The notes beneath the pieces were generated by a model. The model did not search any database, was not told where the DNA came from, and saw only the letters and a program-made list of their open reading frames with translations. From Pseudobacter ginsenosidimutans (GTDB taxonomy: Bacteria > Bacteroidota > Bacteroidia > Chitinophagales > Chitinophagaceae), in assembly GCF_007970185.1 (NCBI RefSeq), contig NZ_CP042431.1, forward strand, positions 7,671,342 through 7,735,341: a DNA stretch of 64,000 nt, in the 5' to 3' direction. The translations under genes were made by a program, and so were the position numbers. This document shows positions 25,705-64,000 of the stretch, piece after piece (the stretch's first letter is position 1; every line of letters starts with the position of its first letter).

Positions 25705-25722
25705 AATTCGATGTTTTGTTGA

Positions 25723-27240: not shown

Positions 27241-27256
27241 TTTTTTGTCTTGAAGG

Positions 27257-30835: not shown

Positions 30836-30888
30836 GGTAATCGAGTTTAGTTTTGGTTGATTGCTCCGTTTATTCTCTGGTTCGTTGG

Positions 30889-32073
30889 CTATTTTGACAT
30901 GACCTGACTTACAAGAATTGTTTTCCCTTTGATGTTGAATTTCACATAGGCAGGTTGCTCGATGAGTGCAAGCACATCTTCAATATGTGCTTCTTTTTTC
31001 AGTCTCCCTCCCACTTTTCGCTGCTTTAATTCAGGAGAAGAGAATACAAAATCGAAATCGTATAAACGGCTAAGGTTGTTTGTTGCTTCTTCGAGAGAAA
31101 CCTCGTCGAATATGATCTGCCCGTCTTTCCAGGCGGTAAATGTTTCTGTGTCCACAGCTCTGGTAATGAATTTATCATTGGTAAGCATGGCCTGCAAACC
31201 CGGCTCCAGCATGGCCTGCATGCCTGCGGCGTTCAGCCTTACTGACCCGTTCACCAGTGTGGTGGTAAATTTTTTGGTATAGGTATTCACATTGAACTCC
31301 GTGCCCAATACCTGCACTTCCATCCCACTTGCATTCACAATAAAAGGCAATGCAGTATTCTTCTTCACTTTAAAATAGGCTTCGCCGCTTTCAAGAAATA
31401 CTTCTCTCCTGGTTACACCCCCAAAATGAGCGGGATAACGCAGTTTGGTGGAGGCATTCAACCAGACCTCGGTCCCATCCGCCAACTCCAGCCTGTACTG
31501 ACCACCCCTCGGAATGATCAGGGTATTGTATCCCGCAGCTTTCACCAACCCTTCGCGGGCTGCGTATTTCAAAAGGCTTGTATCTACATTGGTAATCTCA
31601 GTTAGGCCTTGTTGAAATTTACTGTCAGGATTTTCCTGCAACTCTATTCGCTCTCCATCGGCCAGTACAAGGGTGGCGCGACGGGAATCCAGAGGTTCGG
31701 TAATGTATTTTGCGGTCTCAGATGAAGCCTGGTCTTTTTTATTCACCAGCAGGTAAGCCAGAGCGCCAATCACCATCAGCCCAAGTACAACCGCTGCGTA
31801 TCCCATCCATTTCCTTACGGGCTGTAACCTGCGCACAGCACCAGTTTCAGCGGTTGCATCTTTCTGAAGTATAGCGGTAATGATCTGCTCTGCGTCCCGC
31901 AGTTCCAAAGGCTGTTCCTGGTTGTTCTCCGAATACAGTCCGGCCACCAGCGCATCGCGTTGAGATGCCGCTTTACCCTTCGATAAAAAGGTCATCAGCT
32001 CCAGTTCCTCTTCTGCTGAGATCGAATGACTGGTCCATTTGGTGAACAATTCCCGCAGCCTGTTATCCTCCAT
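30889..32073 (-). CDS. FecR-family anti-sigma factor
   Basis: 394 residues from ATG 32073; an upstream in-frame start overlaps the sigma gene. The cytoplasmic N-terminal region (about 1-85, LRELFTKWTSHSISAEEELE) would bind the sigma factor. One membrane helix lies near 93-113 (MGYAAVVLGLMVIGALAYLL). The periplasmic FecR domain is at about 175-275 (LADGTEVWLNASTKLRYPAH, ESGEAYFKVKKN), followed by the C-terminal DUF4974-like domain (SRLYDFDFVFSSPELKQRK) that contacts the STN domain of SusC. It holds the sigma factor inactive until the transporter binds substrate. It is 13 bases after the sigma gene. Confidence 0.93.
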   Translation of the reverse strand: MEDNRLRELFTKWTSHSISAEEELELMTFLSKGKAASQRDALVAGLYSENNQEQPLELRDAEQIITAILQKDATAETGAVRRLQPVRKWMGYAAVVLGLMVIGALAYLLVNKKDQASSETAKYITEPLDSRRATLVLADGERIELQENPDSKFQQGLTEITNVDTSLLKYAAREGLVKAAGYNTLIIPRGGQYRLELADGTEVWLNASTKLRYPAHFGGVTRREVFLESGEAYFKVKKNTALPFIVNASGMEVQVLGTEFNVNTYTKKFTTTLVNGSVRLNAAGMQAMLEPGLQAMLTNDKFITRAVDTETFTAWKDGQIIFDEVSLEEATNNLSRLYDFDFVFSSPELKQRKVGGRLKKEAHIEDVLALIEQPAYVKFNIKGKTILVSQVMSK

Positions 32074-32086
32074 ATTCCTGGTTTCT

Positions 32087-32680
32087 TTAAAGTAGACGAA
32101 TGAGTATAAAAAAAGAGGGGATGCCCCAGAAAACAATTTTCAATAAATTCTTTTTGAGGGTGGCGGTAGCCTTCTTGATATATTCTTTCACTGTATGAAT
32201 GGAGATACCCATTTCTTCTGCGATCTCCTGTTGTTTCTTTCTATCAAAGCGACTCATCTCCCAGACTTTCCGCTGCTGCGGCGGCAATTCAGCCACCGCC
32301 TGGTAAAGTTTGGCGTGGTACTGTTTCCATTCTTCATCGTTCTCTTCTCCAGATTGCTGGCTTGATCCCGATTGCAGCTCGTGCAGGATGATTCGCTCAT
32401 GGGCCATCCTCCGCAGCATATCGCTTCCGGTATTGCGGGCAACAGTTACTAACCAGGCTTCAAAATTGCTGATACGAACCAGCTCAGCACGCTGCTGCCA
32501 TAATTTGGTAAAGGCTTCCTGAACTATCTCTTCGGCAAGTACTGAAGAACCGGTCAGTTTGAGCGCAAAAGCATTGATACGGGGAGACCATGCATGGAAT
32601 AGCGTGCGGAACGCATTTTCATCGCCTTCAGATAGTTTAAGCAGCAGTTCAGCCTGATCATATTGCGGGTTGGATAGCAA
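32087..32680 (-). CDS. ECF RNA polymerase sigma factor (sigma-70 family, SusC/FecR type)
   Basis: 197 residues. Region 2 is at about 15-90 (FRTLFHAWSPRINAFALKLT, AEEIVQEAFTKLW), and region 4 is at about 130-185 (AVAELPPQQRKVWEMSRFD, EEMGISIHTVKEYIKKA). There is no in-frame ATG before region 2 is well under way; the best start is a TTG at 32680 with an AGGGA sequence 9 bases upstream, so this is a non-ATG start. A hydrophobic C-terminal tail (IVFWGIPSFFILIRLL) is common in Bacteroidota ECF factors of this class. It directs transcription of the susCD operon when released by FecR. Confidence 0.93.
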   Translation of the reverse strand: MLSNPQYDQAELLLKLSEGDENAFRTLFHAWSPRINAFALKLTGSSVLAEEIVQEAFTKLWQQRAELVRISNFEAWLVTVARNTGSDMLRRMAHERIILHELQSGSSQQSGEENDEEWKQYHAKLYQAVAELPPQQRKVWEMSRFDRKKQQEIAEEMGISIHTVKEYIKKATATLKKNLLKIVFWGIPSFFILIRLL

Positions 32681-49695: not shown

Positions 49696-51915
49696 TTAAT
49701 TAAAAAGTTTGTTTGGTTTAGGTCCCATTTCCAGTTCAAGGGTTCCTCCGTTCATGAGATCCTGGTGTGAGAACCAGAGAGTATGTAAATCTTTTCCGTT
49801 AAGGGTTGCTTTCTGGATGTATTTGTTCAGGTCAGAGCAATTATTGGCATTTACTGTGAACTGTTTTCCATTGGTGAGATTGATGCTCACTTTACTGAAG
49901 AGCGGGCTGCCGATTGTATACACCGGGTTGCCGGGCGTAAGCGGGTAAAAGCCCATGGCAGAGAACACTACAAAAGCGCTCATCCCTCCCCCATCCTCAT
50001 CACCGGGAATGCCGAATACATTGTCGCCAAACCATGCATCCAGCAAAAAGCGTATGCGCTTCTGCGTTTTCCATGGAGAGGAAGTGTAATTGTAGAGATA
50101 AGGAATATGGAAGCTCGGCTCATTGCCCATGGAGAATTGTCCAACCAGTCCGGTTGCATCGGGGAACGTGGCCCAGAATTCGTATTTCGATCTGCCCAGT
50201 CCTTCGCGAAAGAGCTGGTCCAGCTTCTCTTCAAATTTTTCTTTTCCCCCCATCATTTGAATGAGGGCGGGAATATCCTGTTGTACCTGCCACGCATAGG
50301 TGTAGCCGTTATTTTCATCGTAGTAATCGCGGCCACCGGGACCTCCTGAGAATTTAGGATCGATATCGATCCAGTTGCCTTTATTGTCCTTCGGCAGGAA
50401 GAGTTGTTTTTCAGGATGCCAGAGGTTGTGATAGTTCTTACTGCGCTGGAAGAAGAAACCGGCATCGTCTTTTTTGTTGAGGTCTTTTGCCAGTTCGCTC
50501 AGGGCCCAGTCGTCATAACTATGTCCGAGTGTGATGGCAACTGCCTGTCTTTTTTCGAAGGGGTGCACTTTGGGCTCGGTTTCTTTTTCGCCGGGATGCA
50601 AAGCGGGGAACCAGCCATTGGTATGGTAGAAATCATCCAGTGCGGTCTTTGGACCGTTCACCCAGGGGATCATGGTGGCGTCGGTGGCATTCTTCCTCAT
50701 ACCTTCATAGGCTTTGTTCACATCGAAATTGGTAATGCCTTTGCGGTAAGCATCGAGGAAGCTGATACCTGAATGGAATCCATTCATGCAGGCATGGTCT
50801 CCGAACAGCACAGGGAATGTGGGCATCCAGCCGCTTTGCTGGTACATGCGCACATAGGATTGCAGCATGTCTGCTTCCTGTTCGGGATTAAGGATGATGC
50901 GGAGCGGATGATGCGCCAGGTAGGTATCCCAGGCCCAGTCGTCTGTGTAGAATGTTCTCTCATCCTTATGAACCTGTTTATCAAAGCCGCTGAAATAGGC
51001 GCCATCTTCGGTGATGTCTACCATTCTTTCATAACAGCGGTAGAGTGCGGAGTAAAAACTTCTTTTCTGTGCATCGGAGCCACCTTCCACCTGGATCTGT
51101 GAAAATGTTTTCTCCCAGATCTGCCTGGCCTGCTCCTGCAGGCCATCGAAATCCATTCCATTCAGTTCAGACAGGAAATTCTTTTTCGCCTGTTCTGCAC
51201 TGATATAGCTGAGGGCATATTGAAACTCCACGATGGCCGTTCCTTTGGGAAATTGAACGAAGGCTTTTGTATTGTTGCCAGAAACGTAGTTCCTGTTTTC
51301 CATTTTTCCATTTTCTACTATTCCACTTTTACCGGCAACGCTGAACTTTCCGTAGAGGAATACTTTGATATCGCCGTGATATACTTCGATACCAGTAAGC
51401 TCGTGGCCGGAGAAACGGTATTCGTTCGTACCCTGATTATAGTTTCCGAAAAGCAGGGATGGTTCAGAACCGGCGGGAAAACGGAACCTGAAGATCCCGG
51501 CTTTGCGGCCGGGTGTAAAATCAACGGTGATGTCTTCGTCAATCAGGTAAGTGGAATAGAACCAGGGGCTGGCGGTTTCAAGATCATTATCCCAGGTCTG
51601 GAGCTGCGCCCAGGAGCCTGCATTAACAGGCTTAACAAATGGCTTAACGGAGAATACCTGCCCCAGGCGATGGCTCACCAGCGTGAGCGGGAAAGAACTG
51701 ATCTGATCATCGAAATTATCTTTCCGCTGCGGGGTGAAACGGATGAGTTGATTGGGAAGATGGGTAAGCGGCCGGGTAGGTTCCAGCAGTGCGCCCACAT
51801 TGCCGATACGGGGATCGATATATTTAAGATTGGAAACGGATTGCCCTTTTGCCAGGGTAATGGCAATAACAAGGCAGCATGTGAGGGCCGGTTGCAGAAA
51901 CGGGGCTAATCTCAT
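49696..51915 (-). CDS. GH92-family alpha-mannosidase, secreted
   Basis: 739 residues, the usual GH92 length, with signal peptide 1-24 (LTCCLVIAITLAKG). The N-terminal beta-sandwich holds IDPRIGNVGALLEPTRPLTH. The (alpha/alpha)6 catalytic domain contains DDWAWDTYLAHHPLRIILNP, NEPSFHIPYLYNY (general acid Glu region) and GDEDGGGMSAFVVFSAMGFY (catalytic Asp region and Ca-binding loop). GH92 enzymes are exo-alpha-mannosidases (mostly alpha-1,2) that invert configuration and need calcium. It is the first gene of the operon 51915-38109 and, by family, gives the locus a mannoside specificity. Confidence 0.92.
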   Translation of the reverse strand: MRLAPFLQPALTCCLVIAITLAKGQSVSNLKYIDPRIGNVGALLEPTRPLTHLPNQLIRFTPQRKDNFDDQISSFPLTLVSHRLGQVFSVKPFVKPVNAGSWAQLQTWDNDLETASPWFYSTYLIDEDITVDFTPGRKAGIFRFRFPAGSEPSLLFGNYNQGTNEYRFSGHELTGIEVYHGDIKVFLYGKFSVAGKSGIVENGKMENRNYVSGNNTKAFVQFPKGTAIVEFQYALSYISAEQAKKNFLSELNGMDFDGLQEQARQIWEKTFSQIQVEGGSDAQKRSFYSALYRCYERMVDITEDGAYFSGFDKQVHKDERTFYTDDWAWDTYLAHHPLRIILNPEQEADMLQSYVRMYQQSGWMPTFPVLFGDHACMNGFHSGISFLDAYRKGITNFDVNKAYEGMRKNATDATMIPWVNGPKTALDDFYHTNGWFPALHPGEKETEPKVHPFEKRQAVAITLGHSYDDWALSELAKDLNKKDDAGFFFQRSKNYHNLWHPEKQLFLPKDNKGNWIDIDPKFSGGPGGRDYYDENNGYTYAWQVQQDIPALIQMMGGKEKFEEKLDQLFREGLGRSKYEFWATFPDATGLVGQFSMGNEPSFHIPYLYNYTSSPWKTQKRIRFLLDAWFGDNVFGIPGDEDGGGMSAFVVFSAMGFYPLTPGNPVYTIGSPLFSKVSINLTNGKQFTVNANNCSDLNKYIQKATLNGKDLHTLWFSHQDLMNGGTLELEMGPKPNKLFN

Positions 51916-52369
51916 GAAGCAGTGATTCTGGTGTTTAAGCTTTGGTACGACACCGGTCGGCTACATGAAACTATCCCGTCCCCGGGATGGTTCCTTTTCA
52001 TATAGCAATGGCATCGTTATCGTCAGCAAAATAGCTTTGGTGCATTAACAGGGCTCTTAACAAAGCCCATAATAAGCTCATAACGCCAAAAAAAATTTCA
52101 AAATAGTTCCTTTGTATTAAAATTTTCAGGCAAATGAGCGGCGTTCAGGCCGGCAAAAAAAACTTCCTGCCGGAAAAAATGAATTTCCGGAACCGGGCTG
52201 GTCCTTTTAATAAGGACATATAATAAAGGAATGGCGGTGGGATTGTCTCTGCGTACCGAATATACAATTTGTCTCGTTTTTTTGCATGCTAATCCCCCCT
52301 ATTTCAAATAAGGGTGCATACAGCATTGTATTGCCCTGAACCAAAACACTCATTCATCATATACTTATT
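51916..52369. other. 454-bp non-coding region upstream of the PUL and the chimeric remnant
   Basis: No gene is recognised. The stretch should hold the promoter of the GH92-led operon, but no exact TAnnTTTG element was found on the minus strand. Overlapping hairpins are present: CCGGCA (52150-52155) with TGCCGG (52168-52173), and CCGGAAA (52170-52176) with TTTCCGG (52184-52190); these share bases and cannot form together. A smaller stem GGGCT/AGCCC lies at 52051-52068. AT-rich runs are frequent around 52080-52140. Confidence 0.4.
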
Positions 52370-52581
52370 ATGAGTACTATTCCAAAGATCGGGAAGCTCT
52401 CACACAGGTACAGCAGCTCCTGGGCCATCCGGGATATCAACCTGATAATAAACCATACAGGTGTGGTAGGATTACTCGGCTCCATTGGCACCGGCAAGTC
52501 CGCTACCGGGGGATAACCGAAGACAGACAGGGGATGATGGTCATACGAAATGAGGGAATTCTGGAAATGATCGGTGATTAG
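52370..52581 (+). pseudogene. Chimeric remnant: ABC ATPase N-terminus joined to MutS-like C-terminus
   Basis: From ATG 52370 the frame encodes 48 residues, including KIGKLSHRY, SWAIRDI and a P-loop GLLGSIGTGKSAT. These align with KIEKLSHRY, QWAIRDI and GLLGSNGAGKSTT at the start of the ABC ATPase at 23843-24763. The frame stops at 52514-52516. In the next frame, from about 52510 to the TAG at 52579, the bases encode GITEDRQGMMVIRNEGILEM, which aligns with GITNDRHGMMIIGNENIIGI and GISADRHGMMIIANEGIVDI, the C-termini of the MutS-like proteins at 20146 and 18788. Everything between is missing. It is non-functional and too diverged for a recent local duplication. Confidence 0.8.
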
Positions 52582-52871
52582 TGCTTTGATGAATATATCT
52601 AACTGAAAACAAGAAGAATGAACCACAGGAAAGCGCCAGGAGTGTATGGTTAGTTGCTGCTGAATGGGGTAAATACTGGGGAAAAGGTGCTGCGGGAGGT
52701 ATGCAGGGGGTACCAGGAACTGATGTCCGGGCCTGCTTTCCTGTACGCCGGATGTTCGTGAGTATTGTTGATTGTTGTGGGAATAGTATAGTCATAAATG
52801 GAATGTTATGGGTGCAAAACTGCACCAATCACAACATTCAATTGTCATATGTTAATACTAGTAGTACAAGA
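52582..52871. other. Non-coding region after the remnant
   Basis: 290 bases between the remnant and the stop of the T9SS cargo gene. Short open frames exist (for example from 52701) but run antisense into the cargo gene and have no recognisable motif. No terminator or further homology to the ABC/MutS cluster was seen. Confidence 0.3.
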
Positions 52872-55403
52872 TTAAGGCTGCATCACCAACTGCTTTACCA
52901 CCCGGGTCTTTCCCATCCATATCACTACCTGATAAACGCCTGCCGGCACCTGATTCAGGTTCAACGGTATTACCAGGCTGTTTGTCTGTTTTTTCATTAT
53001 TACACTTTTTACCGGCAAACCATTTATACCGGTAATCAATATGCGAATGTCACCTGCAAACCTGTTGTTCAGTTCCAGCCAGCTTTTTCCTTTTGCGGGA
53101 TTGGGGAATATCCTTACTCCATCATTCAAATTCACATCATTTCCTGAAAGCACGATCTGATCCAGGGTTCCGAAATAAATAGAAGAATTTCCATACTGTT
53201 CCTCCCTGTTACCAATAAAATGAAGGCGGCTGGCAGAGGCTTCAAACAAATTGCTGATGGAGAATTCGGGATAGCCATTCCCATAATACTTAATACCATT
53301 CGGAGTTCCGTCTTTCCGGATATTGGCGAGGAATCCATATTTCTTCCTGGTGCCGAATATTGGTTCGCCGGTAGTACCAGCCAGACAGTAAGCCGTATCT
53401 CCTCTTTCCAACAGGCTGTTGCTGTTATCCGTCAGATAAATATCCAAGGTCCTGGTCCAGGTGGGTGTGCCCCAGCGGTCAACTTTCATCAGCAGCGCAT
53501 CCCGGTTACCTGACAACGTTGCTTCCGCATAGCCAGCCACCAGGTAGTGCAGATCAGTTGTGGCCAGCAGGCTTTGTGCCGCCAGCACGGTATCGGGGCG
53601 CACAAATACACGGGCCCAGATAACATCTCCATCCAGCGTGCTTTGTGCCAGGTAAATTCCCCCTTGTCCGGTCCCATCGGTCCTTGTTGCTTCTCCTGTT
53701 ACTACCAGTCGCTGGTCCGGTGTAACACTGATCTTATTCGCTCTTGTATTGTATCGGAAGAAGGCGCGGGGTTTTCTCCAGGCTTCCGATCCATCGGTAT
53801 TCAATTTCATGATCAGGGCATTGTATTGCATCAAACCCTCGCTCTCTGCACCTGATATATAACAGCCACCATCATTCGAAGGAGCAATATCATCAACATT
53901 GAGTGTCCAGACCTGGCTGCGCCAGATCACTGTTCCATCGGGCCTCAATTTCAGTACCTGGTCGATGCTGAAGCCTGAATCGAATTCCGTCAGCAATACC
54001 AGGAAATTCCCATCAGATGATACGCAGATCCTGCCGGGACTGGAAGCCAGGTCGCTCAGCATCTTTACCCATTCAAATTCCCCGGCTGCATTTATCCTGA
54101 TGAGGCAGGCCATGTAATCATCTTCGGTTACACCTATCAGTTTTACTGTGGCAATATAGCCACCGCCAGGCAGGTTGAGAGTATGCACTATTTCCTGCGT
54201 TACGGTATTCAGTGGTACAGGTAAATTTTTCAGCGATGCTGCTGGTTGAATGGCATAAGGGAAAGGTGCATCCTGCAGTTCCCCATTCAAATTGGTTTTG
54301 ATCAGCAGTGGCGCCGCATCGGGCTGCCCCGGGAGCCTGGCCCATCCGCCGGCAAGGATGGCATCGGATGTAAGGAGCAGCGTATTGGCGGATTCATTGC
54401 TGCCGGCTGTTCCGAATGCTTTTTTCCATTGCAGTTCGCATTGCCAGTTGAATCGACTCAAAACAAGATCAGTGCCGCCTTCCAGGTCATACCAATTGGC
54501 GTTCCATCCGGAACTTGATAACACATACCATCCATTGGCATCATGCCGGATCCCCGCCATATCATCATTCATGCTGATATCAACCAGTTTGGTCCACTCA
54601 GTGGTTCCATCGGCGCGGGCTTTCAGGAACAGGAGATCAGAATTCCCCAGAAAACTGAAAACCGCTTCAGTGGCGGCAAACAGGTAACCGCCATCGGGAC
54701 TCTTGCAAAAGAACATAGGCAGGTAATACTCTCCGTTCATGAACAGTGTGGCAAATTGTTTTTCACTGCGATCACCGCTTGCAGTCACAGTGACTACTTT
54801 CAATTTTCTTTCATCAGGTGTTGTATAGGCGATCTCCAGTCCTCCGTTCTCTGCTGGTTGCAATGAATAACCGAAGAACAGGCCCTCCGCTATTTCCGTT
54901 TTCCAGATCGTTTGTCCTGATTCATTCAGGCAGAGGATATGCAGTCGTTCAGGCTTTTCTTCCATCTCTTTCACATAGGTGAGATAGAAGTTCCCATTAG
55001 CCGCAGGGAAGATCCTTACAGACCTCACCTTTTCATTGAACTGGTACTGGTATACTTTTTCCTGCTCTGCATTTGCCGACAAAATGAACACCCAGAAACC
55101 TGGCAATCCAATACTGTTGGCTGTGATCACAAATTTTCCGGTACTTGTTCTGATCAGCTTTTCAAAGGGCAGGTCTGCAAAGGCTGCAGGCATCCATTCT
55201 TTTTGCAGGATTCCATTTTTATCTGTCAGCACGAAACTATTGGCGCGTATGAATGCATAACCTTCATTACCTGCTTCTACCAGGTCTGTCAGTTGCTGCG
55301 GACGGTTGGGGACAGGATATGTTTTCCAGAATGGCTGCTGCGCCTCCGCCAGCAGACAGCAGGAAAGCAGGAAAAAGAGGCTTAAGGCTGATTTCATTTT
55401 CAT
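52872..55403 (-). CDS. T9SS type A sorted secreted protein with propeller-like repeats
   Basis: 843 residues. Signal peptide 1-21 (LSLFFLLSCCLLAEA). The body is built of repeated blades with Gly-Gly-(Y/C) and Trp signatures (DGGYLFAATE, DGGCYISGAE, GGGYIATVKL), like delta-60/propeller repeats in large extracellular proteins. The last 80 residues are a T9SS type A sorting domain: RIFPNPAKGKSWLELNN, ITGINGLPVKSV and VPAGVYQVVIWM. The protein is exported by the type IX system and displayed or released at the cell surface. No enzyme motif is visible. It stands between two glycan loci and has a 25-base dyad upstream. Confidence 0.88.
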   Translation of the reverse strand: MKMKSALSLFFLLSCCLLAEAQQPFWKTYPVPNRPQQLTDLVEAGNEGYAFIRANSFVLTDKNGILQKEWMPAAFADLPFEKLIRTSTGKFVITANSIGLPGFWVFILSANAEQEKVYQYQFNEKVRSVRIFPAANGNFYLTYVKEMEEKPERLHILCLNESGQTIWKTEIAEGLFFGYSLQPAENGGLEIAYTTPDERKLKVVTVTASGDRSEKQFATLFMNGEYYLPMFFCKSPDGGYLFAATEAVFSFLGNSDLLFLKARADGTTEWTKLVDISMNDDMAGIRHDANGWYVLSSSGWNANWYDLEGGTDLVLSRFNWQCELQWKKAFGTAGSNESANTLLLTSDAILAGGWARLPGQPDAAPLLIKTNLNGELQDAPFPYAIQPAASLKNLPVPLNTVTQEIVHTLNLPGGGYIATVKLIGVTEDDYMACLIRINAAGEFEWVKMLSDLASSPGRICVSSDGNFLVLLTEFDSGFSIDQVLKLRPDGTVIWRSQVWTLNVDDIAPSNDGGCYISGAESEGLMQYNALIMKLNTDGSEAWRKPRAFFRYNTRANKISVTPDQRLVVTGEATRTDGTGQGGIYLAQSTLDGDVIWARVFVRPDTVLAAQSLLATTDLHYLVAGYAEATLSGNRDALLMKVDRWGTPTWTRTLDIYLTDNSNSLLERGDTAYCLAGTTGEPIFGTRKKYGFLANIRKDGTPNGIKYYGNGYPEFSISNLFEASASRLHFIGNREEQYGNSSIYFGTLDQIVLSGNDVNLNDGVRIFPNPAKGKSWLELNNRFAGDIRILITGINGLPVKSVIMKKQTNSLVIPLNLNQVPAGVYQVVIWMGKTRVVKQLVMQP

Positions 55404-55412
55404 CAGATCGAT

Positions 55413-55437
55413 TTGTCAATTTGCCTCTAATTGACAA
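55413..55437. promoter_or_regulatory. 25-bp dyad upstream of the T9SS cargo gene
   Basis: TTGTCAATT (55413-55421) and AATTGACAA (55429-55437) are perfect 9-base inverted arms around a 7-base spacer, 9 bases upstream of the cargo gene ATG. It could be an operator or a 5' mRNA hairpin. Confidence 0.4.
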
Positions 55438-55611
55438 CCAGATTGATCAATTTAAAAGCCCGCAACAGCGGAACCGGGGAGGAAACCGGCTGAACCCTCC
55501 AATAATGTCGCCGGAGTATCCAATTGTTATTCGATTGTTACCGGGGCTACCCGGGTTAAACCATTGCATGAATGCCGGTTCCAATAATGGTAAACAAAAA
55601 AATATCATACC

Positions 55612-56175
55612 ATGAAAAAGATATTCATCCTCCTTGCCGCCTCTGTGGTTACACTGGCCGCAAATGCACAAAACATCACACAGGTTTCAAAAAAAGAAAT
55701 GAAACATGAAAAACACCAGGAAAAGAAAAATGAACGCAAAGAGCTGAGAAAACTGGAAGGTACTGAAGCGAGCTATCAATCGAAGGAAGCATTCCTGGAA
55801 GCTTTCCCAAATGCAACGGATGTGAACTGGAGCAGGGACAAGTTCTACGATATTGCCAGCTTCAATCTTAACGGCATCCATCAAACGGCTTACTATGATT
55901 ACAAGTCGGAGCTGGTAGGTACTGTAATTCCCAAAACCTTCAGCGATCTTCCGGCATCAGCACAAAAATGGATCGATAAAAAATATGCCGGTTATGAAAA
56001 AGGAAGAGTGATATTATTCGACGATAATGAATACAACGAAACAGACATGATGCTATATGGTCTCCAGTTCCAGGATGAAGACAATTACTTCATCGAACTG
56101 CAGAAAGGTACAAGCGATATTGTACTACAGGTAACACCGGAAGGAAACGTGTTCTATTTCACTGAAGTGAAATAA
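55612..56175 (+). CDS. Secreted PepSY-like protein
   Basis: 187 residues. Signal peptide 1-19 (IFILLAASVVTLAANA). A Lys/Glu-rich charged helix follows (about 25-50), then two PepSY-like beta-alpha units: SKEAFLEAFPNATDVNWSRD with YDIASFNLNGIHQTAYYDYK, and a second repeat from ASAQKWIDKKYAGYEKGRVI to FYFTEVK. Such small periplasmic proteins are common in Bacteroidota and their role is unknown. It is followed after 27 bases by the frameshifted small gene, with which it probably forms an operon ended by the bidirectional terminator at 56593. Confidence 0.65.
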   Translation: MKKIFILLAASVVTLAANAQNITQVSKKEMKHEKHQEKKNERKELRKLEGTEASYQSKEAFLEAFPNATDVNWSRDKFYDIASFNLNGIHQTAYYDYKSELVGTVIPKTFSDLPASAQKWIDKKYAGYEKGRVILFDDNEYNETDMMLYGLQFQDEDNYFIELQKGTSDIVLQVTPEGNVFYFTEVK

Positions 56176-56202
56176 AAAAACAAAATTCTAAAATTCTGTA
56201 AA

Positions 56203-56582
56203 ATGAAAAAGCTCATCATCATAATGCTGGCTGTGCTTGTTACAACTGCAGCTTCAGCAATGCCCGTAGCCCGCATCAGTGGCGGCCATCATGGAGGATG
56301 GCACAGACCTCCCAGAACAGTGATCGTTGGCGGAGGCTGGTACAGCCCGTGGTATGGCCCCTGGGATTCTATGGCTACCCCTGGTATCCAACTGCTCCCA
56401 CTCCGCCCAGCAGGCTGGACCTGCAGCTTTCCACCATCAGGGTCAACTATGGAGATAAGATCAAATCAGTAAGAATGGATAAAGACCTGACCAGACAGGC
56501 CAGAAGGGAAAAGATCAAAGACCTGAAAACTCAACGTGAACATGCGATCATCGATGCGAAGAAGAGTTTTTATAAGTACTGA
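56203..56582 (+). pseudogene. Small secreted protein gene interrupted by a one-base frameshift
   Basis: The frame from ATG 56203 gives a good signal peptide (KKLIIIMLAVLVTTAASA) and a Gly/His/Trp-rich segment GGHHGGWHRPPRTVIVGGGW, then goes out of frame after YSPWYGPW at about 56364. From there the natural continuation, GFYGYPWYPTAPTPPSRLDL and a basic helix ending DAKKSFYKY, lies in the frame shifted by one. Inserting one G in the GGG run at 56363-56365 restores a continuous protein of about 126 residues. It may be a true mutation, a sequencing error in the CCCCTGGG context, or, less likely, programmed frameshifting. Function unknown. Confidence 0.72.
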
Positions 56583-56592
56583 TTGATCAGAT

Positions 56593-56635
56593 AAAGAGAA
56601 AAGCAGGCATCAGAATGACGCCTGCTTTTCTCTTT
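56593..56635. terminator. Bidirectional Rho-independent terminator
   Basis: AAAGAGAAAAGCAGGC (56593-56608) and GCCTGCTTTTCTCTTT (56620-56635) form a perfect 16-bp stem with an 11-base loop. The A-rich left flank and T-rich right flank make it usable in both directions. It separates the small secreted-protein operon (plus strand) from the convergent lipoprotein gene ending at 56650. Confidence 0.85.
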
Positions 56636-56649
56636 TTTGCTTTTCATTG

Positions 56650-58371
56650 CTATCGCTGGTAATGATAATCTACCACAATACCATCGATGCTTAGTTTATT
56701 GCCGTCAACCGTTTGCTTCCTTCCTGATGGAACGCAGATGATCACTGCTGATTGCGTTGCAGGAATTTTTATAGATGCAGAACCTGAAACATTCCGTTTG
56801 ATAAAGCTGGCCGTTACTGTATTGTACAGATCGAAGCTTTTTCCTTTTTCCAATGGTATCGTTACTGTTTTACTTTCTCCATACGGATTGTAATAGAGAT
56901 AAGAAGGATAAGCATCGGCCCTGTAGAAATCAGTGGCCAGTAAATTCAATTGCAGTATGCCATCCACATCGGTCTTACGGATGATACTGCCGAAGATGCC
57001 CACATGTGCACTGCCATATACGCTGAACTGCGATACATCGGGATTCTTTCCCGGCACCCAGTTGGGGCCATCGCCCTGCGCCACCGGCGCCTTGATGCTG
57101 GCATACTGATCAAAAGTGCTGCGTTGCACGATCCCTTCATAACCGATCACGCCTTTGGTGATCTCCCTCCTGTTGTACAAGGTCTGGTGTTCAGCAGGCA
57201 TATGATCAGGGTAGAAGAGTTTTGCGGCATTGGCGGCATGCAGCATCCATTTGCCGATGGCATTGGCCCGGCTCTGATCATAACGAACCATGGGCACCAG
57301 CGGCCAGGCGGCATCGTAGGTGTTCATCAGGAACCCATAACCTCCATGGTCAACCGTACTTCCCATGATGCCTGAAATGTCCATGCCATTCCAGGTACCC
57401 ACCAGTATGCCCCAGCCTTCACGGCATTTGGGCGTGCCATCGAAACTCCAGCGGATCATTTTTTCCAGATCGAATTGTTCTCCCATCTCTGCATTCATAC
57501 GTGCCGCCATATAAGCCCCGAAAGGCATCAGCACTTCATAAGTGGGATTGGCAGGTTGTGATTGCAGCGCCTTCAGTGCACTTTTTGCTGCTTTCAGATA
57601 TTTCTCATCCCCGAATTTTTTCCAGGCGGCATACAGAACGTATGCATGACCTGCCGCCGCATCGGGTTGCGGACAGATATGCGATGTAACGGGTTTCAAT
57701 TTCGCATAATCGAAAAAAGAATAATTGTAGTTTCCATTGAGTACAGAGTCTGCCTGGTAAAATTTATCGGCAATGCTGCGCGCAAGGGTATCAAAACCCG
57801 GCGCATGCGGATATTTTTCGTTGATGGCATAGAACAATACATTCGGGTATACATCATACCACCAGTCGCGGCCATAGCCGCCGCCCAGCATCGCTACTTC
57901 CGGACAGGTATTGTTCATCATGATATTCCAGCCGGTTTCCCGGTTGAAATAATTCCTGAGCATGCCCACATAATCCAGATTGTCCTGGTTGGCTTTGTTG
58001 ATACCAACCAAAGTGCCGCCCAGTACGCCTCCCATGGTGGCGAGCGCTTCATGGAACATGCCTTTGTTATTGTTCCTTCCCTGGCGGGCATCCCCCATGG
58101 CAGTATACAATCCAACTACATCCTGTGCAAAATTCTTCCTGCTGCTGTCGATCCATACCAATGGCCAGAACTCGCCCTGGGCATTGAAATCATACACAGT
58201 GCTATCAAATTGAAGTGCCAGTTGTTCATAATCGATAATGTTCAGCGGCTGCGGAATGGCGGACATGGAATCCACTCTTGCAATATTTTTCTGTTCCACC
58301 GGTTTGCCGCCATTATCCGAGCAACCGCTTATGTATAAACCTGCCAATAAGAACCAAAGAGAATGTTTCAT
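56650..58371 (-). CDS. Lipoprotein of the GH130 locus, probable alpha-helical toroid plus beta-sandwich
   Basis: 573 residues. Lipobox LAGLYISGCSDN. The main part (about 60-450) has helical pairs typical of an (alpha/alpha)n toroid, for instance GHAYVLYAAWKKFGDEKYLK and YEVLMPFGAYMAARMNAE. It holds several Asp/Glu/His residues in conserved-looking loops (GYGRDWWYDVYPN, TVDHGGYGFLMNTYDAAW). The last 100 residues look like a C-terminal beta-sandwich (KTVTIPLEKGKSFDLYNTVT). The architecture resembles glycoside hydrolases or lyases with toroid folds, but I do not recognise the family. It is the last gene of the operon susC-susD-GH130-MFS, so a glycan-degrading role is likely but unproven. Confidence 0.6.
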   Translation of the reverse strand: MKHSLWFLLAGLYISGCSDNGGKPVEQKNIARVDSMSAIPQPLNIIDYEQLALQFDSTVYDFNAQGEFWPLVWIDSSRKNFAQDVVGLYTAMGDARQGRNNNKGMFHEALATMGGVLGGTLVGINKANQDNLDYVGMLRNYFNRETGWNIMMNNTCPEVAMLGGGYGRDWWYDVYPNVLFYAINEKYPHAPGFDTLARSIADKFYQADSVLNGNYNYSFFDYAKLKPVTSHICPQPDAAAGHAYVLYAAWKKFGDEKYLKAAKSALKALQSQPANPTYEVLMPFGAYMAARMNAEMGEQFDLEKMIRWSFDGTPKCREGWGILVGTWNGMDISGIMGSTVDHGGYGFLMNTYDAAWPLVPMVRYDQSRANAIGKWMLHAANAAKLFYPDHMPAEHQTLYNRREITKGVIGYEGIVQRSTFDQYASIKAPVAQGDGPNWVPGKNPDVSQFSVYGSAHVGIFGSIIRKTDVDGILQLNLLATDFYRADAYPSYLYYNPYGESKTVTIPLEKGKSFDLYNTVTASFIKRNVSGSASIKIPATQSAVIICVPSGRKQTVDGNKLSIDGIVVDYHYQR

Positions 58372-58398
58372 ACTTACCAGAAATTGTACGGATTAAAT

Positions 58399-59688
58399 TT
58401 ATAAAGTATGCACCGGATCCAATACAGGTGCGGTGATTTTGTCTTCTTCATGTCCATCGTTCAGTGCCTTGCTTTCTTTGATGATGCGTTTGGACACCCA
58501 GATGGAACTCAATTGCAGCACGGCAATGATGATGATGGCGTAACGCAGCGCCACTTCCGTTGAATACCCATAAGCCAGCAGCAGGAAAGTGCCTGCTCCC
58601 AGGAACCGGCCAACATACAGTCCTGCTTCATGATTGAGGATATACGCAAACTCGCTTCTCTTCTCGATCCTCGACAAAACATCTATCACATTGAACTGGA
58701 TGGGGAAATAAGCAAGGTCCATCAACGGCTTCGCCAGCAACAGGAACATCATGAAGATGATCACGCCGGTGGCATTGAAAAGTATGCCATTGGCCAGAGC
58801 AGCCAGAGCAAAGAATATCAATCCTGCTGCAAAAATCTTCACGCGATGCTGCGGCCCCGTCATTCTGCCGATCACGTACATCATCACTGCAGCAATAACA
58901 GCGCCGATGGATTGCGCGGTGCCCAGTGCCCCCTCCTTACCGAGCAGTCGCATGATCAGCATGGCAGGAGCTGTTACCAGAAAACCCTGTGCCAGTCCTT
59001 TCAGCAAAGCCAGGAAAAGCAGTCTGTACCAGAGCGGATGGAATTTGAAATAGATGAATTTCTTCTGCACGGGATTGGTGAAGTTTCCCCGGAAGCAGAC
59101 GATGGACGCGATCACCGTGATCACAAATACGAATCCGGTAATGATCAGGTATGCGCGTTGCACTTTTTCGGCCGCGCCCTGTGATTCAATGAACCAGCCA
59201 ATGGCTACGGGAATGATCACCGCAATGATGGTATAGAAAAAAGTCTCCACACCATAATAATAGTTGCGGTTACCGTCGTTGGTGATGGCCAGTGCCAGGT
59301 AATCACGATTGGCCCAGTAGAATCCGAAACTCATGCCCATAATGATTCCCGCCACGCCGATGCCGGTGAGATCGAGCTCTTTGAGGCTCATCATCACCAC
59401 CATGCTCACGGCACTCAACATCATTCCGATGGAATAGAGTTTACGGATATTGAAATATTTCAGCAGGTAACCATTCAGTAAGAAAGTGAGCGGAATACCT
59501 GTGTAGATGGTCAACTGGTAGATCACCACTTTGGTGGGATCATTGGAATTGCGCATCACATAAGCCGCTACAAAGATATCGATCACGGGCAGCACGATCG
59601 CATACACCAGGTTGGTAAGGATCAGTATCCTGAAATTGTGCGGCTGACTATTGAAATGCGCTATTTCGTTTTTCAGTTTATTGAGCAT
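58399..59688 (-). CDS. MFS transporter
   Basis: 429 residues with about twelve membrane helices. The N-terminal LVYAIVLPVIDIFVAAYVMR and the loop YFNIRKLYSIGMML between helices 2 and 3 fit the major facilitator superfamily (YqgE-like branch). No binding motif indicates the substrate. Its start lies 4 bases after the stop of GH130 and it precedes the unknown lipoprotein by 27 bases, so it most likely imports the mono- or disaccharide (for example a mannoside) that GH130 then processes in the cytoplasm (inference from context). Confidence 0.85.
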   Translation of the reverse strand: MLNKLKNEIAHFNSQPHNFRILILTNLVYAIVLPVIDIFVAAYVMRNSNDPTKVVIYQLTIYTGIPLTFLLNGYLLKYFNIRKLYSIGMMLSAVSMVVMMSLKELDLTGIGVAGIIMGMSFGFYWANRDYLALAITNDGNRNYYYGVETFFYTIIAVIIPVAIGWFIESQGAAEKVQRAYLIITGFVFVITVIASIVCFRGNFTNPVQKKFIYFKFHPLWYRLLFLALLKGLAQGFLVTAPAMLIMRLLGKEGALGTAQSIGAVIAAVMMYVIGRMTGPQHRVKIFAAGLIFFALAALANGILFNATGVIIFMMFLLLAKPLMDLAYFPIQFNVIDVLSRIEKRSEFAYILNHEAGLYVGRFLGAGTFLLLAYGYSTEVALRYAIIIIAVLQLSSIWVSKRIIKESKALNDGHEEDKITAPVLDPVHTL

Positions 59689-59692
59689 GCAC

Positions 59693-60742
59693 TTACTTTA
59701 ATAGTGATACAATCTCATGTATTGAAAAGTCGGCCGCACAAACGAATTCGTCTGCTGCGCCGTAGTAGACCGTAATGGTATCGCCATCATCCTTCACCAG
59801 ATGGCCGTTGGTGAATACAACATGACCGAAGAATCCGCTTAACTCATAAGAAGCAGTGGGAACCATAATTGGTTCTTCTGTACGCGCGATCACACGCGTG
59901 GGATCTTCAAGGTCCAGTAAGAATGCGCCCAAACAATACTGATGCTTTTCATTGGCGCCATGATAGATCTCCAGCCAGCCCTTTTCTGTTTTGATGGGAG
60001 CCGCTCCTGCCCCCACTCTTGCGCTGTCCCACATACCTGGCCGCGCTTTCACGATACAGCGGTGATCGCCCCAGTGAAGGCCATCGGGAGAAGAAGCGAT
60101 CCAGATATAATTGCCGCCAATATCCACGCTGCTCGGACGATGCAGCATGTAGAACTTACCGTTGATCCGCTCTTCAAAAATGGCAACGTCTTTGTTATGC
60201 GGTGGCAGGATCATGCCATGCGATTTGAAATGCTTCCAGTCGGTAGTGGTGCGGAGACCAACTCCAACCCCGTTCTCACTCACAGCAGTAAACGTCAGGT
60301 AGTATCTTCCATCGAGCATGGTTACCCGGCAATCTTCGATCCCGAATGCCTGTAAGATGCCTTCACCGATCAGTTTGGGGTAATGCTCAGGCTCGTAAAA
60401 ATTGATACCATCTTCACTGCACACCAGTCTCAGGTGACTGAGTGTAGTAAGATAATCGGTCCCTTTGTAGTTGATCACGCGGGCATCGGAAGCATCCAGC
60501 TCAGGATCATTTTTAGGAATTTCCATAATGCGAATGCCCGTTTCCGTTAGAATAGGAAAAGAGATGATCCCTTCCTGCTGCTGCGGCCTTTCTGCCACGC
60601 GCACGATCAGCCAGGTTTTGTTATTGTATTTGAACACGCCCGGATTCAGCAGGCAGGCCACTTCCAGGCCAGGATGACTGGGCGGGATATCGCCGGGTAC
60701 CAATAATGGATTCTGAGGGAAACGTTTTGCCAGATCTTTCAT
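59693..60742 (-). CDS. GH130-family mannoside phosphorylase or mannosidase
   Basis: 349 residues from ATG 60742; an in-frame start 45 bases upstream adds a non-conserved tail. Five-bladed propeller with LEVACLLNPGVFKYNNKTWL at the start, the GH130 motif FGIEDCRVTMLDGRYYLTFT (Asp as general acid, with an EDCR variant of the usual EDPR), and AGAAPIKTEKGWLEIYHGA. No signal peptide, so it acts in the cytoplasm. GH130 enzymes are beta-1,4-mannosyl phosphorylases or beta-1,2-mannosidases; which of these applies cannot be decided. It lies 63 bases after the SusD gene. Confidence 0.88.
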   Translation of the reverse strand: MKDLAKRFPQNPLLVPGDIPPSHPGLEVACLLNPGVFKYNNKTWLIVRVAERPQQQEGIISFPILTETGIRIMEIPKNDPELDASDARVINYKGTDYLTTLSHLRLVCSEDGINFYEPEHYPKLIGEGILQAFGIEDCRVTMLDGRYYLTFTAVSENGVGVGLRTTTDWKHFKSHGMILPPHNKDVAIFEERINGKFYMLHRPSSVDIGGNYIWIASSPDGLHWGDHRCIVKARPGMWDSARVGAGAAPIKTEKGWLEIYHGANEKHQYCLGAFLLDLEDPTRVIARTEEPIMVPTASYELSGFFGHVVFTNGHLVKDDGDTITVYYGAADEFVCAADFSIHEIVSLLK

Positions 60743-60805
60743 ACACTTGGGTTGTTCCGGCAGTTGCGGGAAGCAACTGCCGGACATTGGTTACTGATCG
60801 ACTGA

Positions 60806-62290
60806 TTAATAATCATTTTGGGTGATGGTGCCGCCTGCCCTGTCTATCTCACTCTGCGGAATGGGATACAGATAATGTTTGTCCTGAAAATTCCTGCCCA
60901 TTGCGTTGAGTACATCTTTGGCAATTTTCCATCTTTTCAGATCATTGAAACGCTGGTTCTCAAATCCAAGCTCCACGCGTCTTTCATGACGCAACCAGGT
61001 ATTGATCTGTGCTTTATCCGTAACAGCTTCGCTGCGTGCAGGCAATGTTCCTGCGGGAATAACAGAACCATCAGCGGTAACAGTGGTTCTTGCGCGTTCG
61101 CGTATCCTGTTGATGATCTTGATCGCTTCGAGCGGATTAGTGCTCTCGTTATAAGCTTCCGCTTTCCATAGCAATACATCTGCAAACCTGATATATAACT
61201 TGTTATTAGGCGCATCTTCATTGCCCTTATTGGTATTATCCAAAGTGCCTAATAATTTGTAGGGAGCTTGTTGGGCTACATTCACTGTGTATAGTTTGCG
61301 GGGATCGTTCGCTTCAAATTCATTCAGGAAATTGGTAGTTGGAGCAATGAATCCCCATCCGATAAGTGCTGTAAAGCCATTACCATTCCTGGGTAATTGT
61401 CCTGTTTTGTGATCGAATGCAAAGATCACTTCCTTATCTGCATACTCTTTGGTTTGATCGAAACTGTCGAAATAATTATCGTTCAGATCATAGAAACCAA
61501 GTGTTTCCAGGTCATTCACCAGTGTAATTACATCGCTCCATTTTTGATTGTACAGCGCTACTTTAGCCTGCAGAGCAATTACTGCACCTTTGGATACGCG
61601 CCATTTATCATTATTGTCGGAGAATTTGGTTGCAGGCAAATAGTCTCTTGCTTCTGTAAGGTCTGTACTGATTTGCTTCCACACTTCTTCTACCGGCGCT
61701 CTCTTAGCCAGTTCATAGGCTTGTTCAAAATTCTCCAGGGGTTGGGTAAGGAGAGGCACAGCTCCATAATTATTCACCAGGTCAAAATAATAAAAGGCGC
61801 GCAGGAAGAGCACTTCAGCCAGCCAGCGTTTGCGTGTAACTTCGTCCAGTCCTACTTTTCCGGGAATCTCGGGATCTTTGAGATAGGCAATGGCCTGGTT
61901 GACGCGTGCAATGCCTTCATAGTTGATCAGCCATTGACCGATAAAGGCCGGCCCCTCAGGCGTAAAACTAAAATTGGCCACTTCATCCATCCAGGCCTGG
62001 TCTCCATCCAGGTTGTATTTCCGCTGCATATCGCCGGCAGCAATATCCTGTAATATGAAATCGTTGCGCACTACCAGTCCCCTGTTCCAGGCCCAGTTAC
62101 CGATCACGTTCAATCGAGTGCTGAGCAGCTGGTAACTGAAATTCACCGCAGAGCTGAGTGTACCGATCTTTGGATCGAAATCAACCTGCTCTGGCGTGAT
62201 CCTTCCCACAGGATCTTCATACAAATATTTCTTACAACCGATACTGCCGGTGAGTAACAAAGAAGCAGCGATAATATGAATAGGTTTCAT
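60806..62290 (-). CDS. SusD/RagB-family outer-membrane lipoprotein (GH130 locus)
   Basis: 494 residues from ATG 62290; an in-frame start 18 bases earlier precedes the signal. Lipobox ASLLLTGSIGCKKYLYEDPV. RKRWLAEVLFLRAFYYFDLV is the SusD TPR helix, and RHERRVELGFENQRFNDLKR the C-terminal hallmark. YLYPIPQSEIDRAGG closes it. It forms the surface lid of the SusC encoded 21 bases upstream. The ligand is probably a mannoside, judged from the GH130 gene in the same operon. Confidence 0.93.
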   Translation of the reverse strand: MKPIHIIAASLLLTGSIGCKKYLYEDPVGRITPEQVDFDPKIGTLSSAVNFSYQLLSTRLNVIGNWAWNRGLVVRNDFILQDIAAGDMQRKYNLDGDQAWMDEVANFSFTPEGPAFIGQWLINYEGIARVNQAIAYLKDPEIPGKVGLDEVTRKRWLAEVLFLRAFYYFDLVNNYGAVPLLTQPLENFEQAYELAKRAPVEEVWKQISTDLTEARDYLPATKFSDNNDKWRVSKGAVIALQAKVALYNQKWSDVITLVNDLETLGFYDLNDNYFDSFDQTKEYADKEVIFAFDHKTGQLPRNGNGFTALIGWGFIAPTTNFLNEFEANDPRKLYTVNVAQQAPYKLLGTLDNTNKGNEDAPNNKLYIRFADVLLWKAEAYNESTNPLEAIKIINRIRERARTTVTADGSVIPAGTLPARSEAVTDKAQINTWLRHERRVELGFENQRFNDLKRWKIAKDVLNAMGRNFQDKHYLYPIPQSEIDRAGGTITQNDY

Positions 62291-62311
62291 GATGTTCGAT
62301 TTTAGCACTGA

Positions 62312-64000
62312 TTAGAAATTGATGTTTACACCAAAGAGAATGGCCCTTGAAAGCGGATAGGTTCCCATGTCCAGCATATCTGTGGATTCAGGATCGAGGC
62401 CGGTGTAATCGGTGATGGTAAATACATTCTGAGCAGAAACATACACTCTCAGGTTCTGGATCCCGGGCGCCATTCTTTTCAAAACATTTTTGAATGAATA
62501 GCCCAGTTCGATGTTCTTGAGACGCAGGTAGGAGGCATCTTCCACGAAAATGCTGCTGACCCTGCTGCTGCCATTGTCCTTTGTGGTAGCAATAGGAATG
62601 GAATTGCTGGTTCCCTCTCCATGCCATGAACCCAGTGTGCGGGTACTATGGTTGAATGGACGTGTATCGTAATCAGTGATCTTCTTAAGGTCATTGTATT
62701 TATCTACATCCTGAACGCCCTGGAAGAGAATGTTCAGATCGAAGCCTTTGTAGCTACCGGTAAGGGTCAGGCCATAAGTATATTTCGGATTCGGATTGCC
62801 GATGAAAGTTCGGTCGGAGCTATTGATCACGCCATCATTGTTCCTGTCCTCAAATTTGATATAACCCGGAAGCGGTTTGATATTACCAGGTGTATTGGGA
62901 AGATGTTTATCGATCTCCGCCTGGTTCTGATAGATACCGATCATATTGTAACCGTAGAAAGCACCAAGAGGCTGGCCGACGGTAGTTCTGTAAACATCAC
63001 CCGCAATGATCGGCATGTTGGCATGCAGATGGTCTACATTGTTTTTGATGGTGGCAAAGTTGGCATTGATGCCGTATTTGAATTCGCCGGTAGTGTTCCT
63101 GTAACCGAGCGCAATTTCAAAACCTTTATTGCTTACATCGCCTGCATTCACACTGGTAGCTTCCAATGTACCATAGATCTCCGGCAGGGAAAGCGGCAGC
63201 AGGATATCGGAAGTTTTCTTCACGAAATAGTCTATACTCAATGTCAGCTTGTTCCTCAGTAAAGCGAGGTCTGCACCGATATTGGTTTGCGTGGTGGTTT
63301 CCCATTTAAGATCGGGATTACCCATCCTGATCAGCCTGTACCGGCCTTCCTGTAATGTGAACAAGGTCTTATACACATAGTAAGGAAGTTCCTGATTACC
63401 CAATGATCCAACGCTGGCGCGTAAGCGCAGATCATCCAGCCAGCTGATATCACGCATGAAATTCTCTTCGCTGATGCGCCAACCAACCGACATGGAAGGG
63501 AAATATCCCCATCTTTTGTTTTCACCAAAATTGGAGGAAGCATCTGCCCTGAAATTGGCCGTCAGCATATATTTGGAGTCGTAGGTATACGTGGCCGTTC
63601 CGAAGAAAGAGAAGAGGCCGAGATCACTTCCGGAACCGCCGTTCCAAACATCAGTTTGTGCATTTCCGTAATCCAGGTACTGGAAATTAGGCGTTTCATA
63701 ATCGAACCTGTTCCTGGAACCACCGGTATTGGCCGTTTTCCAGGTGATATACTCAGTACCAGCAAGTGCACTGATCTGGTGCTTGTTGATCCGTTTTGAA
63801 TAATTGAGAGTATTGGTCCAGGTGAAATTCATTTCCTCCCCCCTGTCGTCAGTCAGGGCATTAGGGCGATTCTTCCTACCCATACCCGGGAAGTTTGCAT
63901 TGTTCTCATCATCGCCAAAATTCGGATAGAAGGCTTTGTTATGGGTATAGTTAATGTCAACACCCAGGTTGGTGCGGAACTTCAATTCTTTTTCACGGAG
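62312..64000 (-). CDS. SusC/RagA-family TonB-dependent transporter, C-terminal part (cut by window edge)
   Basis: The frame remains open to base 64000, so the start lies outside the window; about 562 C-terminal residues are present. The sequence is the beta-barrel part of SusC, with YTYDSKYMLTANFRADASSN, RISEENFMRDISWLDDLRLR, DLALLRNKLTLSIDYFVKKT and the final strand ILFGVNINF. It pairs with the SusD gene 21 bases downstream and heads the operon susC-susD-GH130-MFS-lipoprotein. STN and plug domains cannot be assessed. Confidence 0.93.
   Translation of the reverse strand, partial: LREKELKFRTNLGVDINYTHNKAFYPNFGDDENNANFPGMGRKNRPNALTDDRGEEMNFTWTNTLNYSKRINKHQISALAGTEYITWKTANTGGSRNRFDYETPNFQYLDYGNAQTDVWNGGSGSDLGLFSFFGTATYTYDSKYMLTANFRADASSNFGENKRWGYFPSMSVGWRISEENFMRDISWLDDLRLRASVGSLGNQELPYYVYKTLFTLQEGRYRLIRMGNPDLKWETTTQTNIGADLALLRNKLTLSIDYFVKKTSDILLPLSLPEIYGTLEATSVNAGDVSNKGFEIALGYRNTTGEFKYGINANFATIKNNVDHLHANMPIIAGDVYRTTVGQPLGAFYGYNMIGIYQNQAEIDKHLPNTPGNIKPLPGYIKFEDRNNDGVINSSDRTFIGNPNPKYTYGLTLTGSYKGFDLNILFQGVQDVDKYNDLKKITDYDTRPFNHSTRTLGSWHGEGTSNSIPIATTKDNGSSRVSSIFVEDASYLRLKNIELGYSFKNVLKRMAPGIQNLRVYVSAQNVFTITDYTGLDPESTDMLDMGTYPLSRAILFGVNINF

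Follow-up and report, generated by a model that had tools for sequence, protein, structure and literature searches.

A deletion relic of an ABC-MutS cassette in Pseudobacter ginsenosidimutans and a large family of SusC/SusD-linked modules

Positions 52370-52581 of the window, by which we mean the whole 64-kb stretch of the Pseudobacter ginsenosidimutans genome that was analysed, are almost certainly what remains of an ABC ATPase-permease-MutSa-MutSb cassette after a deletion of about 5.87 kb joined its two ends. The two ends of the lost cassette are present, in order, and the middle is missing; its orientation is opposite to that of the intact cluster at 18788-24763 (Table 1). The first-pass annotation had read the site as an ATPase N-terminus joined to a MutS-like C-terminus in another frame, and translated searches bear this out, with both pieces significantly matching the ATPase and MutS-like families. 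When the window's own intact proteins are searched against 52300-52650 (tblastn), the ATPase matches through its residues 5-47 (43 aa, 63% identity, frame +2, E 4e-15) and MutSb through residues 421-441 (21 aa, 62%, frame +1, E 4e-7). MutSa residues 416-437 also match the scar (22 aa, 55%, E 2e-6), and the permease has no match in this interval. Across the whole window, the scar is the sole ABC match at E<=0.01 beyond the intact gene (E 9e-11), and its MutS match is weak (E 0.001 with MutSb, 0.007 with MutSa). The observed 54.3 bits for the ABC N-terminus and 32.3 bits for the MutS C-terminus compare with best values of 21.6 and 21.9 in 50 first-order Markov shuffles of the window. That the scar is real is confirmed.

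Table 1. Features of the relic, its flanks and the intact module (window coordinates)
Feature	Position	Strand	Basis
Leader of the lost ATPase gene	52316-52369	+	Lies in 52316-52506, 88% nucleotide identity to P. rhizosphaerae L028 15142-15332, where the gene is intact
ABC ATPase, first 46 codons, through degenerate P-loop	52370-52507	+	tblastn, frame reading, shuffles
Deletion junction	52507-52510	.	2-3 bp ambiguous between parents; no long repeat seen (read by eye)
MutSb, last 23 codons and stop, in a frame other than that of the ABC piece	52510-52581	+	22/23 residues identical to the P. rhizosphaerae orthologue
843-aa protein with T9SS sorting domain, right flank, common to P. rhizosphaerae	52872-55403	-	blastn, domain scan
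GH92 glycosidase, left flank, common to the third congener, absent from the P. rhizosphaerae locus	49696-51915	-	Comparison with both congeners
MutSb (Pfam: MutS domains III and V only)	18788-20149	-	Pfam, model
MutSa (Pfam: MutS domains III and V only)	20146-21495	-	Pfam, model
GldF-GldG-like permease (ABC2_membrane_2 + ABC_transp_aux)	21511-23811	-	Domain scan
GldA-like ABC ATPase	23843-24763	-	Domain/NCBIfam scan
Lipoprotein, weak Peptidase_Mx1 match (23.1 bits, cut-off 25.6)	24799-25704	-	Domain scan
SusD	25723-27270	-	Scan; SusC and SusD adjacent
SusC	27257-30835	-	630 bits with TIGR04056, cut-off 368
FecR	30889-32136	-	
ECF sigma factor	32087-32680	-	

The frame that opens with the ATG at 52370 runs for 48 codons, MSTIPKIGKLSHRYSSSWAIRDINLIINHTGVVGLLGSIGTGKSATGG, and encodes a GldA-like ABC ATPase from its first residues as far as the P-loop; two Gly codons precede its stop, a TAA at 52514-52516. 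The last of the 46 ABC codons aligns to Thr47 of the window's intact ATPase, and the P-loop, which is GSNGAGKST in the orthologue of the congener Pseudoflavitalea rhizosphaerae KACC 18655 (contig NZ_RCSU01000003.1), reads GSIGTGKSA in the scar. The MutS piece runs from a Gly codon at 52510 to the TAG at 52579-52581, and its frame closes with GITEDRQGMMVIRNEGILEMIGD. The inner boundaries first proposed, 52513 and 52505, lie a few bases off the edges at 52507 and 52510. The junction was read by eye against the P. rhizosphaerae parents.

P. rhizosphaerae retains what the window has lost. A 311-bp query covering the scar finds two collinear matches there, 5.87 kb apart, of 89% (query 1-177) and 80% (181-294). 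By blastn, the left edge pairs 52316-52506 with L028+L029 15142-15332 at 88% DNA identity, and the right edge pairs 52510-56185 with 21202-24876 at 81%. Enclosed between these edges are an intact ATPase, permease, MutSa and MutSb, in that order, to which the scar is 80% identical over 46 aa in its ABC piece and 96% over 23 aa in its MutSb piece; no SusC or SusD lies directly upstream of this cassette (locus L108). Because the congener holds an intact cassette between homologous edges, we conclude that about 5.87 kb was deleted in the window's genome. The deletion begins just past the P-loop of the ATPase and spares the last 23 codons of MutSb, in agreement with the original proposal of a deletion from just after the P-loop to near the end of the last MutS-like gene. 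As the junction shows no long repeat, we infer a single illegitimate event. The search for an intact syntenic cassette in relatives thus succeeded, but its predicted place upstream of a GH92 PUL held only in part: the cassette is there, and the GH92 locus is absent at this place in P. rhizosphaerae. Synteny rests on the right flank and on farther-left DinB/Crp-like genes, the collinear blocks (blastn) covering window positions 5945-18971 (in pieces), then 52316-52506, then 52510-63994.

Two other readings of the site have to be weighed. Recombination between two modules, one giving the ATPase end and another the MutS end, would have had many partners among the 55 modules described below, whose ABC proteins reach 94% pairwise identity. 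It is nevertheless very improbable, because both pieces are closest, among the matches listed, to the two ends of one P. rhizosphaerae cassette at the same locus, and homology to that genome continues outward on both sides. The other reading, in which a conserved small gene or regulatory RNA at 52370-52581 resembles both families by chance, draws on the intact ATG, leader and 48-aa frame and on a MutS piece that is nearly unchanged relative to P. rhizosphaerae. We regard it as extremely improbable: in 51900-53000 every Rfam family stays below its gathering score, a plasmid search gave no match to the scar, and no match at E<1e-3 spans the junction outside the window's own site among the matches listed for 59 genomes (the window's own, five of the genus and 53 others; best 12 candidates per genome scored for the 311-bp query), in which the two parts match separately.

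The substitution pattern can be set beside the deletion reading. Relative to P. rhizosphaerae, the ABC piece shows 11 nonsynonymous and 6 synonymous differences (dN/dS 0.55), compared with dN/dS values of 0.018, 0.055, 0.060 and 0.142 for four neighbouring genes. The MutS piece shows 2 and 6 (dN/dS 0.06) over only 23 codons, and both pieces together give 0.28 from few sites; these differences are not split between lineages, and many may predate the deletion. The ABC value favours loss of function, and the MutS value looks constrained, weakly so with 23 codons. The scar itself is ordinary genome decay. It does not differ in kind from known deletion relics (pseudogenes) of amplified families, with which it shares fused 5' and 3' ends, an altered catalytic motif and an intact orthologue in a sister species; it is unusually clear here, with the sister species carrying the reciprocal relic.

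This reciprocal relic lies in P. rhizosphaerae at C23:96800-96994 (L028 12801-12995), where a 65-residue C-terminal stub, orthologous to the MutSb that is intact in the window and 85% identical to it, adjoins a Crp-type regulator (named by eye). Since only this stub is kept at that regulator, the loss is reciprocal: each genome has lost what the other keeps, P. rhizosphaerae the module that is intact in the window and the window the P. rhizosphaerae cassette. A third congener (G002, contigs of MAG BIN25) has GH92 and the right flank linked. Its copy of the site carries a further module on the minus strand, bounded by GH92 and by orthologues of a 187-aa and a 573-aa gene, in the order sigma, FecR, SusC, SusD, ATPase, permease; no MutS gene was found in this module, and other genes occupy the position of the relic. 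The sigma and FecR of this module (contig C488) have 80% and 74% identity to their counterparts next to the P. rhizosphaerae cassette, and the presence of such a module argues that the site has seen repeated loss. We rejected the idea that the P. rhizosphaerae sigma and FecR are diverged orthologues of the window's own, as their best matches among the 55 modules lie elsewhere, at 40-47%, against 74-80% in G002. The simplest ancestral order would be module A (the intact one), the GH92 locus, module B, cassette C and the gene for the 843-aa protein. From this order, 1) the window's genome would have lost B and most of C; 2) P. rhizosphaerae would have lost A through most of B; and 3) G002 would be without C. 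The module family appears to undergo birth and death. A comparison of 55 entries of the window's genome with 27 of P. rhizosphaerae gives 16 reciprocal best hits, a rough view of turnover only, in which MutSa-MutSb cross-hits are summed and identities are consequently too low.

The intact module of the window (18788-32680) has adjacent SusC and SusD genes, as a SusC/SusD locus should, and the relic retains neither of them. The module contains no glycosidase. Its ATPase scores 277.6 bits with the GldA model of NCBIfam, and its permease 59.7 with GldF and 30.1 with GldG, all below the respective cut-offs of 402.6, 288.5 and 389.85. An assignment to anti-phage defence was tried and rejected: with five window proteins, PADLOC returned only partial ABC ATPase matches (the best to mad3, 106.9 bits over residues 132-210) and one marginal match of MutSa (16.1 bits), and the other three proteins had none.

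The lost cassette had been taken for a second copy of the intact cluster, which falls far short: it is one of more than 55. The single-contig genome of 7.80 Mb gives 121 MutSb matches at E<=1e-5 and 97 permease matches, which cluster in 64 places, 59 with MutS and 54 with MutS and permease; one of the 54 holds two convergent modules, hence 55 modules. They are spread over C1:314002-7695152, several of them in tandem runs such as the five at 3696222-3774230, and the 54 with an assigned sigma take up 820.7 kb of non-overlapping sequence, or 10.5% of the genome, at a mean of 15.2 kb. Nearly all 55 follow the order sigma-FecR-SusC-SusD-(lipoprotein)-ATPase-permease-MutSa-MutSb. SusC and the ABC ATPase occur in every one, and sigma and FecR lie upstream on the same strand in 54, with c17 having both on the opposite strand. 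A match to the window's SusD stands between SusC and the ATPase in 46/55; among the other nine, eight have a frame of 489-542 aa there, and in c33 the match overlaps SusC. Most modules place a variable lipoprotein-like gene between SusD and the ATPase, falling (clustering at E 1e-6, one member of each of the five groups domain-scanned) into an unnamed family of 23, another unnamed one of 12, eight PKD-like, four DUF4843 and two Peptidase_Mx1-like members, and singletons. After the ATPase, permease-MutS-MutS follows in 27/55, the rest having an extra permease or split frames, and two a fused MutS. At least one short, probably broken frame occurs in 13/55 modules, for which sequencing error is a possible source; the stops reported inside many MutS matches are ascribed to alignment beyond the normal end of shorter paralogues. 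The modules share the sigma-FecR-SusC-SusD order with the SusC/SusD loci of Bacteroidota that carry ECF sigma and FecR, from which they differ in adding an ABC-2 type ATPase, a permease and two MutS-like proteins, and in their 55 copies.

Several arrangements depart from this plan. In one further module, which is rotated (L122:2883-18093; MutSa-MutSb-sigma-FecR-SusC-SusD-DUF4843-PKD-ABC-permease), the MutS pair lies upstream of sigma and SusD is in pieces. One SusC-SusD-ABC-permease set has no MutS within the 10 kb examined. Ten modules (c2, c13, c32, c40b, c42, c44, c45, c57, c58, c62) have an additional ECF-sigma-like gene, placed after SusC/SusD and before the ATPase, and the one of these that was scanned matches Sigma70 regions 2 and 4. 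In c32 (L062) and c37 (L066), MutSa is split close to the boundary between domains III and V into frames of about 235 and 217-252 aa, which may reflect decay, error or a real split gene. An isolated MutSb C-terminal fragment (L121:3787-4383; match at C1:6849789-6850283) is 81% identical to the window's MutSb over the conserved half, compared with 41-50% overall for full paralogues, and is probably another relic.

The genes of the module differ in how far they have diverged and in how far they have done so together. With fragmented or odd-length rows left out, mean pairwise identity is 0.63 for the ABC ATPase (n=55), 0.58 for MutSb and 0.575 for MutSa (n=50 each), 0.40 for the permease (54), 0.39 for FecR (54), 0.32 for SusD (53), 0.30 for SusC (49) and 0.27 for sigma (54). 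The distance matrices correlate most strongly for MutSa-MutSb (Mantel r 0.94), SusC-SusD (0.93) and ABC-permease (0.85), followed by ABC with MutSa and MutSb (0.81 and 0.80) and the permease with the same two (0.70 and 0.69). SusC/SusD against the ATPase-permease-MutS block give 0.48-0.58, and for all these comparisons 0/500 permutations were as high. Because the matrices correlate within it, ATPase-permease-MutSa-MutSb behaves as one inherited block, and SusC-SusD as another, partly linked to it. A single inherited unit from sigma to MutSb is disfavoured: sigma and FecR show -0.13 to 0.05 with the other genes (0.21 with each other), although noise in short diverged proteins may explain these values. 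The unit is accordingly claimed only for the ATPase-permease-MutS block. The first-pass view that the cassette travels as a conserved unit is therefore strongly supported for ATPase-permease-MutS and needs extending, since ECF sigma, FecR, SusC and SusD likewise belong to the typical module.

Beyond this genome the distribution is patchy. The six genus members have 114, 51, 38, 23, 9 and 7 MutS matches at E<=1e-30, counts that include solo MutS genes and fragments; the congeners have far fewer than the window's genome. Within Chitinophagaceae, 181/194 genomes match, most of them once, and the single matches listed are about 30% identical and represent a solo MutS-like gene. Module-type MutS (best match below 1e-90) occurs in 19/194 of these genomes, copy numbers being lower bounds as the best 8 candidates per genome were scored, and in 2/296 genomes of a phylum sample (best 5 per genome), one of the two being the window's own. 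Among 13 named loci, eight (L101-L108) hold ATPase, permease and MutS pair together, in a Chitinophagaceae MAG, Sanguibacteroides, Chitinophaga, two Sphingobacterium, Flavitalea, Pedobacter and Pseudoflavitalea; the others (L109-L113) have MutS-like genes without ATPase and permease. A solo MutS-like gene at L120:6663-8000, 31% identical to MutSa and lying between dihydroorotase-like and peptidase-like genes (named by eye), is perhaps of the type that occurs singly in most of the family.

MutS proteins are known for their work on DNA, and the pair in these modules keeps the core of that fold. GANMAGKST is kept in 25/25 MutSa and 31/32 MutSb rows, and FDELF in 19/25 and 32/32, its Asp-Glu being invariant in MutSa. 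Pfam finds MutS_V in 25/25 and 32/32 and MutS_III in 23/25 and 32/32, besides three marginal AAA matches, and finds domains I, II and IV in 0/25 MutSa and 0/32 MutSb. AlphaFold2 monomer models of the window's MutSa and MutSb (mean pLDDT 82 and 87) have MutS and MSH structures as their closest matches, the rmsd across the full chain being high; for both, the best Foldseek match is MutS 7oto_B (E 2.6e-22 and 9.2e-22, TM 0.69-0.70 by query length, rmsd 8-12). The two proteins score 110.7-139.1 bits with MutS1 equivalog models, whose cut-offs are 480-641.7, and 104.8 and 105.9 bits with KamC (lysine 5,6-aminomutase reactivase ATPase), whose cut-off is 300. They thus share domains III and V with MutS1, MutS2 and KamC, and differ from them in their length of about 450 aa, in the lack of any Pfam match to domains I, II and IV, and in scores of 65-139 bits against cut-offs of 300-642. 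Since Pfam finds only domains III and V, a role in mismatch repair seems unlikely, and the pair would be an ATP-driven dimer of the MutS type that lacks the mismatch-binding and clamp domains. A MutSa-MutSb heterodimer is favoured because the two are fused in one open frame in two modules, c35 (L065, 874 aa) and c51 (L080, 900 aa); these fusions and the Mantel correlation of the pair support it indirectly.

What the intact modules do can be read tentatively from gene neighbourhood, domains and models. Possibly, the MutSa-MutSb heterodimer is the cytosolic accessory ATPase of a GldAFG-like inner-membrane ABC machine behind SusC/SusD, under a FecR/ECF-sigma switch: 1) ECF sigma and FecR would switch on the SusC/SusD uptake pair; 2) the ABC machine would handle the substrate behind it; and 3) the MutS pair would serve this machine. 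In F. johnsoniae, GldG is likely to join GldA and GldF in an ABC transporter needed for gliding (PMC5682007). The module resembles that transporter in its ATPase (GldA) and permease (GldF and GldG), all below cut-offs as given above, and unlike it has the GldF-like and GldG-like parts in one protein, is multicopy and adjoins SusCD. Export or self-protection, in which a DrrA-like ABC exporter removes toxic compounds entering through or sensed by SusCD, is an unlikely function. The next NCBIfam models of the ATPase after GldA are drrA (198.2 bits) and a lantibiotic-protection ATPase (177.8), both below their cut-offs, but export leaves unexplained both the SusC of all 55 modules and the paired MutS proteins. 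Quite improbable is an action of the MutS pair on DNA, e.g. limiting recombination among paralogous modules. The core fold and conserved ATPase motifs would suit it, and MutS2 is termed an inhibitor of recombination in Helicobacter pylori (PMC4739419); against it stand the lack of Pfam domains I, II and IV in every row and the occurrence of one pair per transport module, not one per genome.

Text searches of open-access literature found no description of the SusCD-ABC-MutS module, and as far as they reach the family is large, patchy and undescribed. That Bacteroidota contain an undescribed class of SusCD-linked modules is close to, if a little short of, an even call, when the claim is taken whole: a MutS-derived heterodimer without mismatch or clamp domains would be the dedicated cytosolic ATPase of a GldAFG-like machine, in some 55 diverged copies that keep ATPase-permease-MutS while SusC and SusD diversify, with a turnover so fast that congeners carry reciprocal relics at one locus. 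Through the relic a paralogous family of great size comes to light; its 55 copies make up about 10.5% of the genome and place MutS-like ATPases within transport operons. The family offers a natural series of diverged receptors (SusC/SusD 0.30-0.32) on a conserved engine (ABC 0.63, MutS 0.58), and the retention of a MutS pair without mismatch or clamp domains in transport modules raises the testable question of a second job for the MutS fold.
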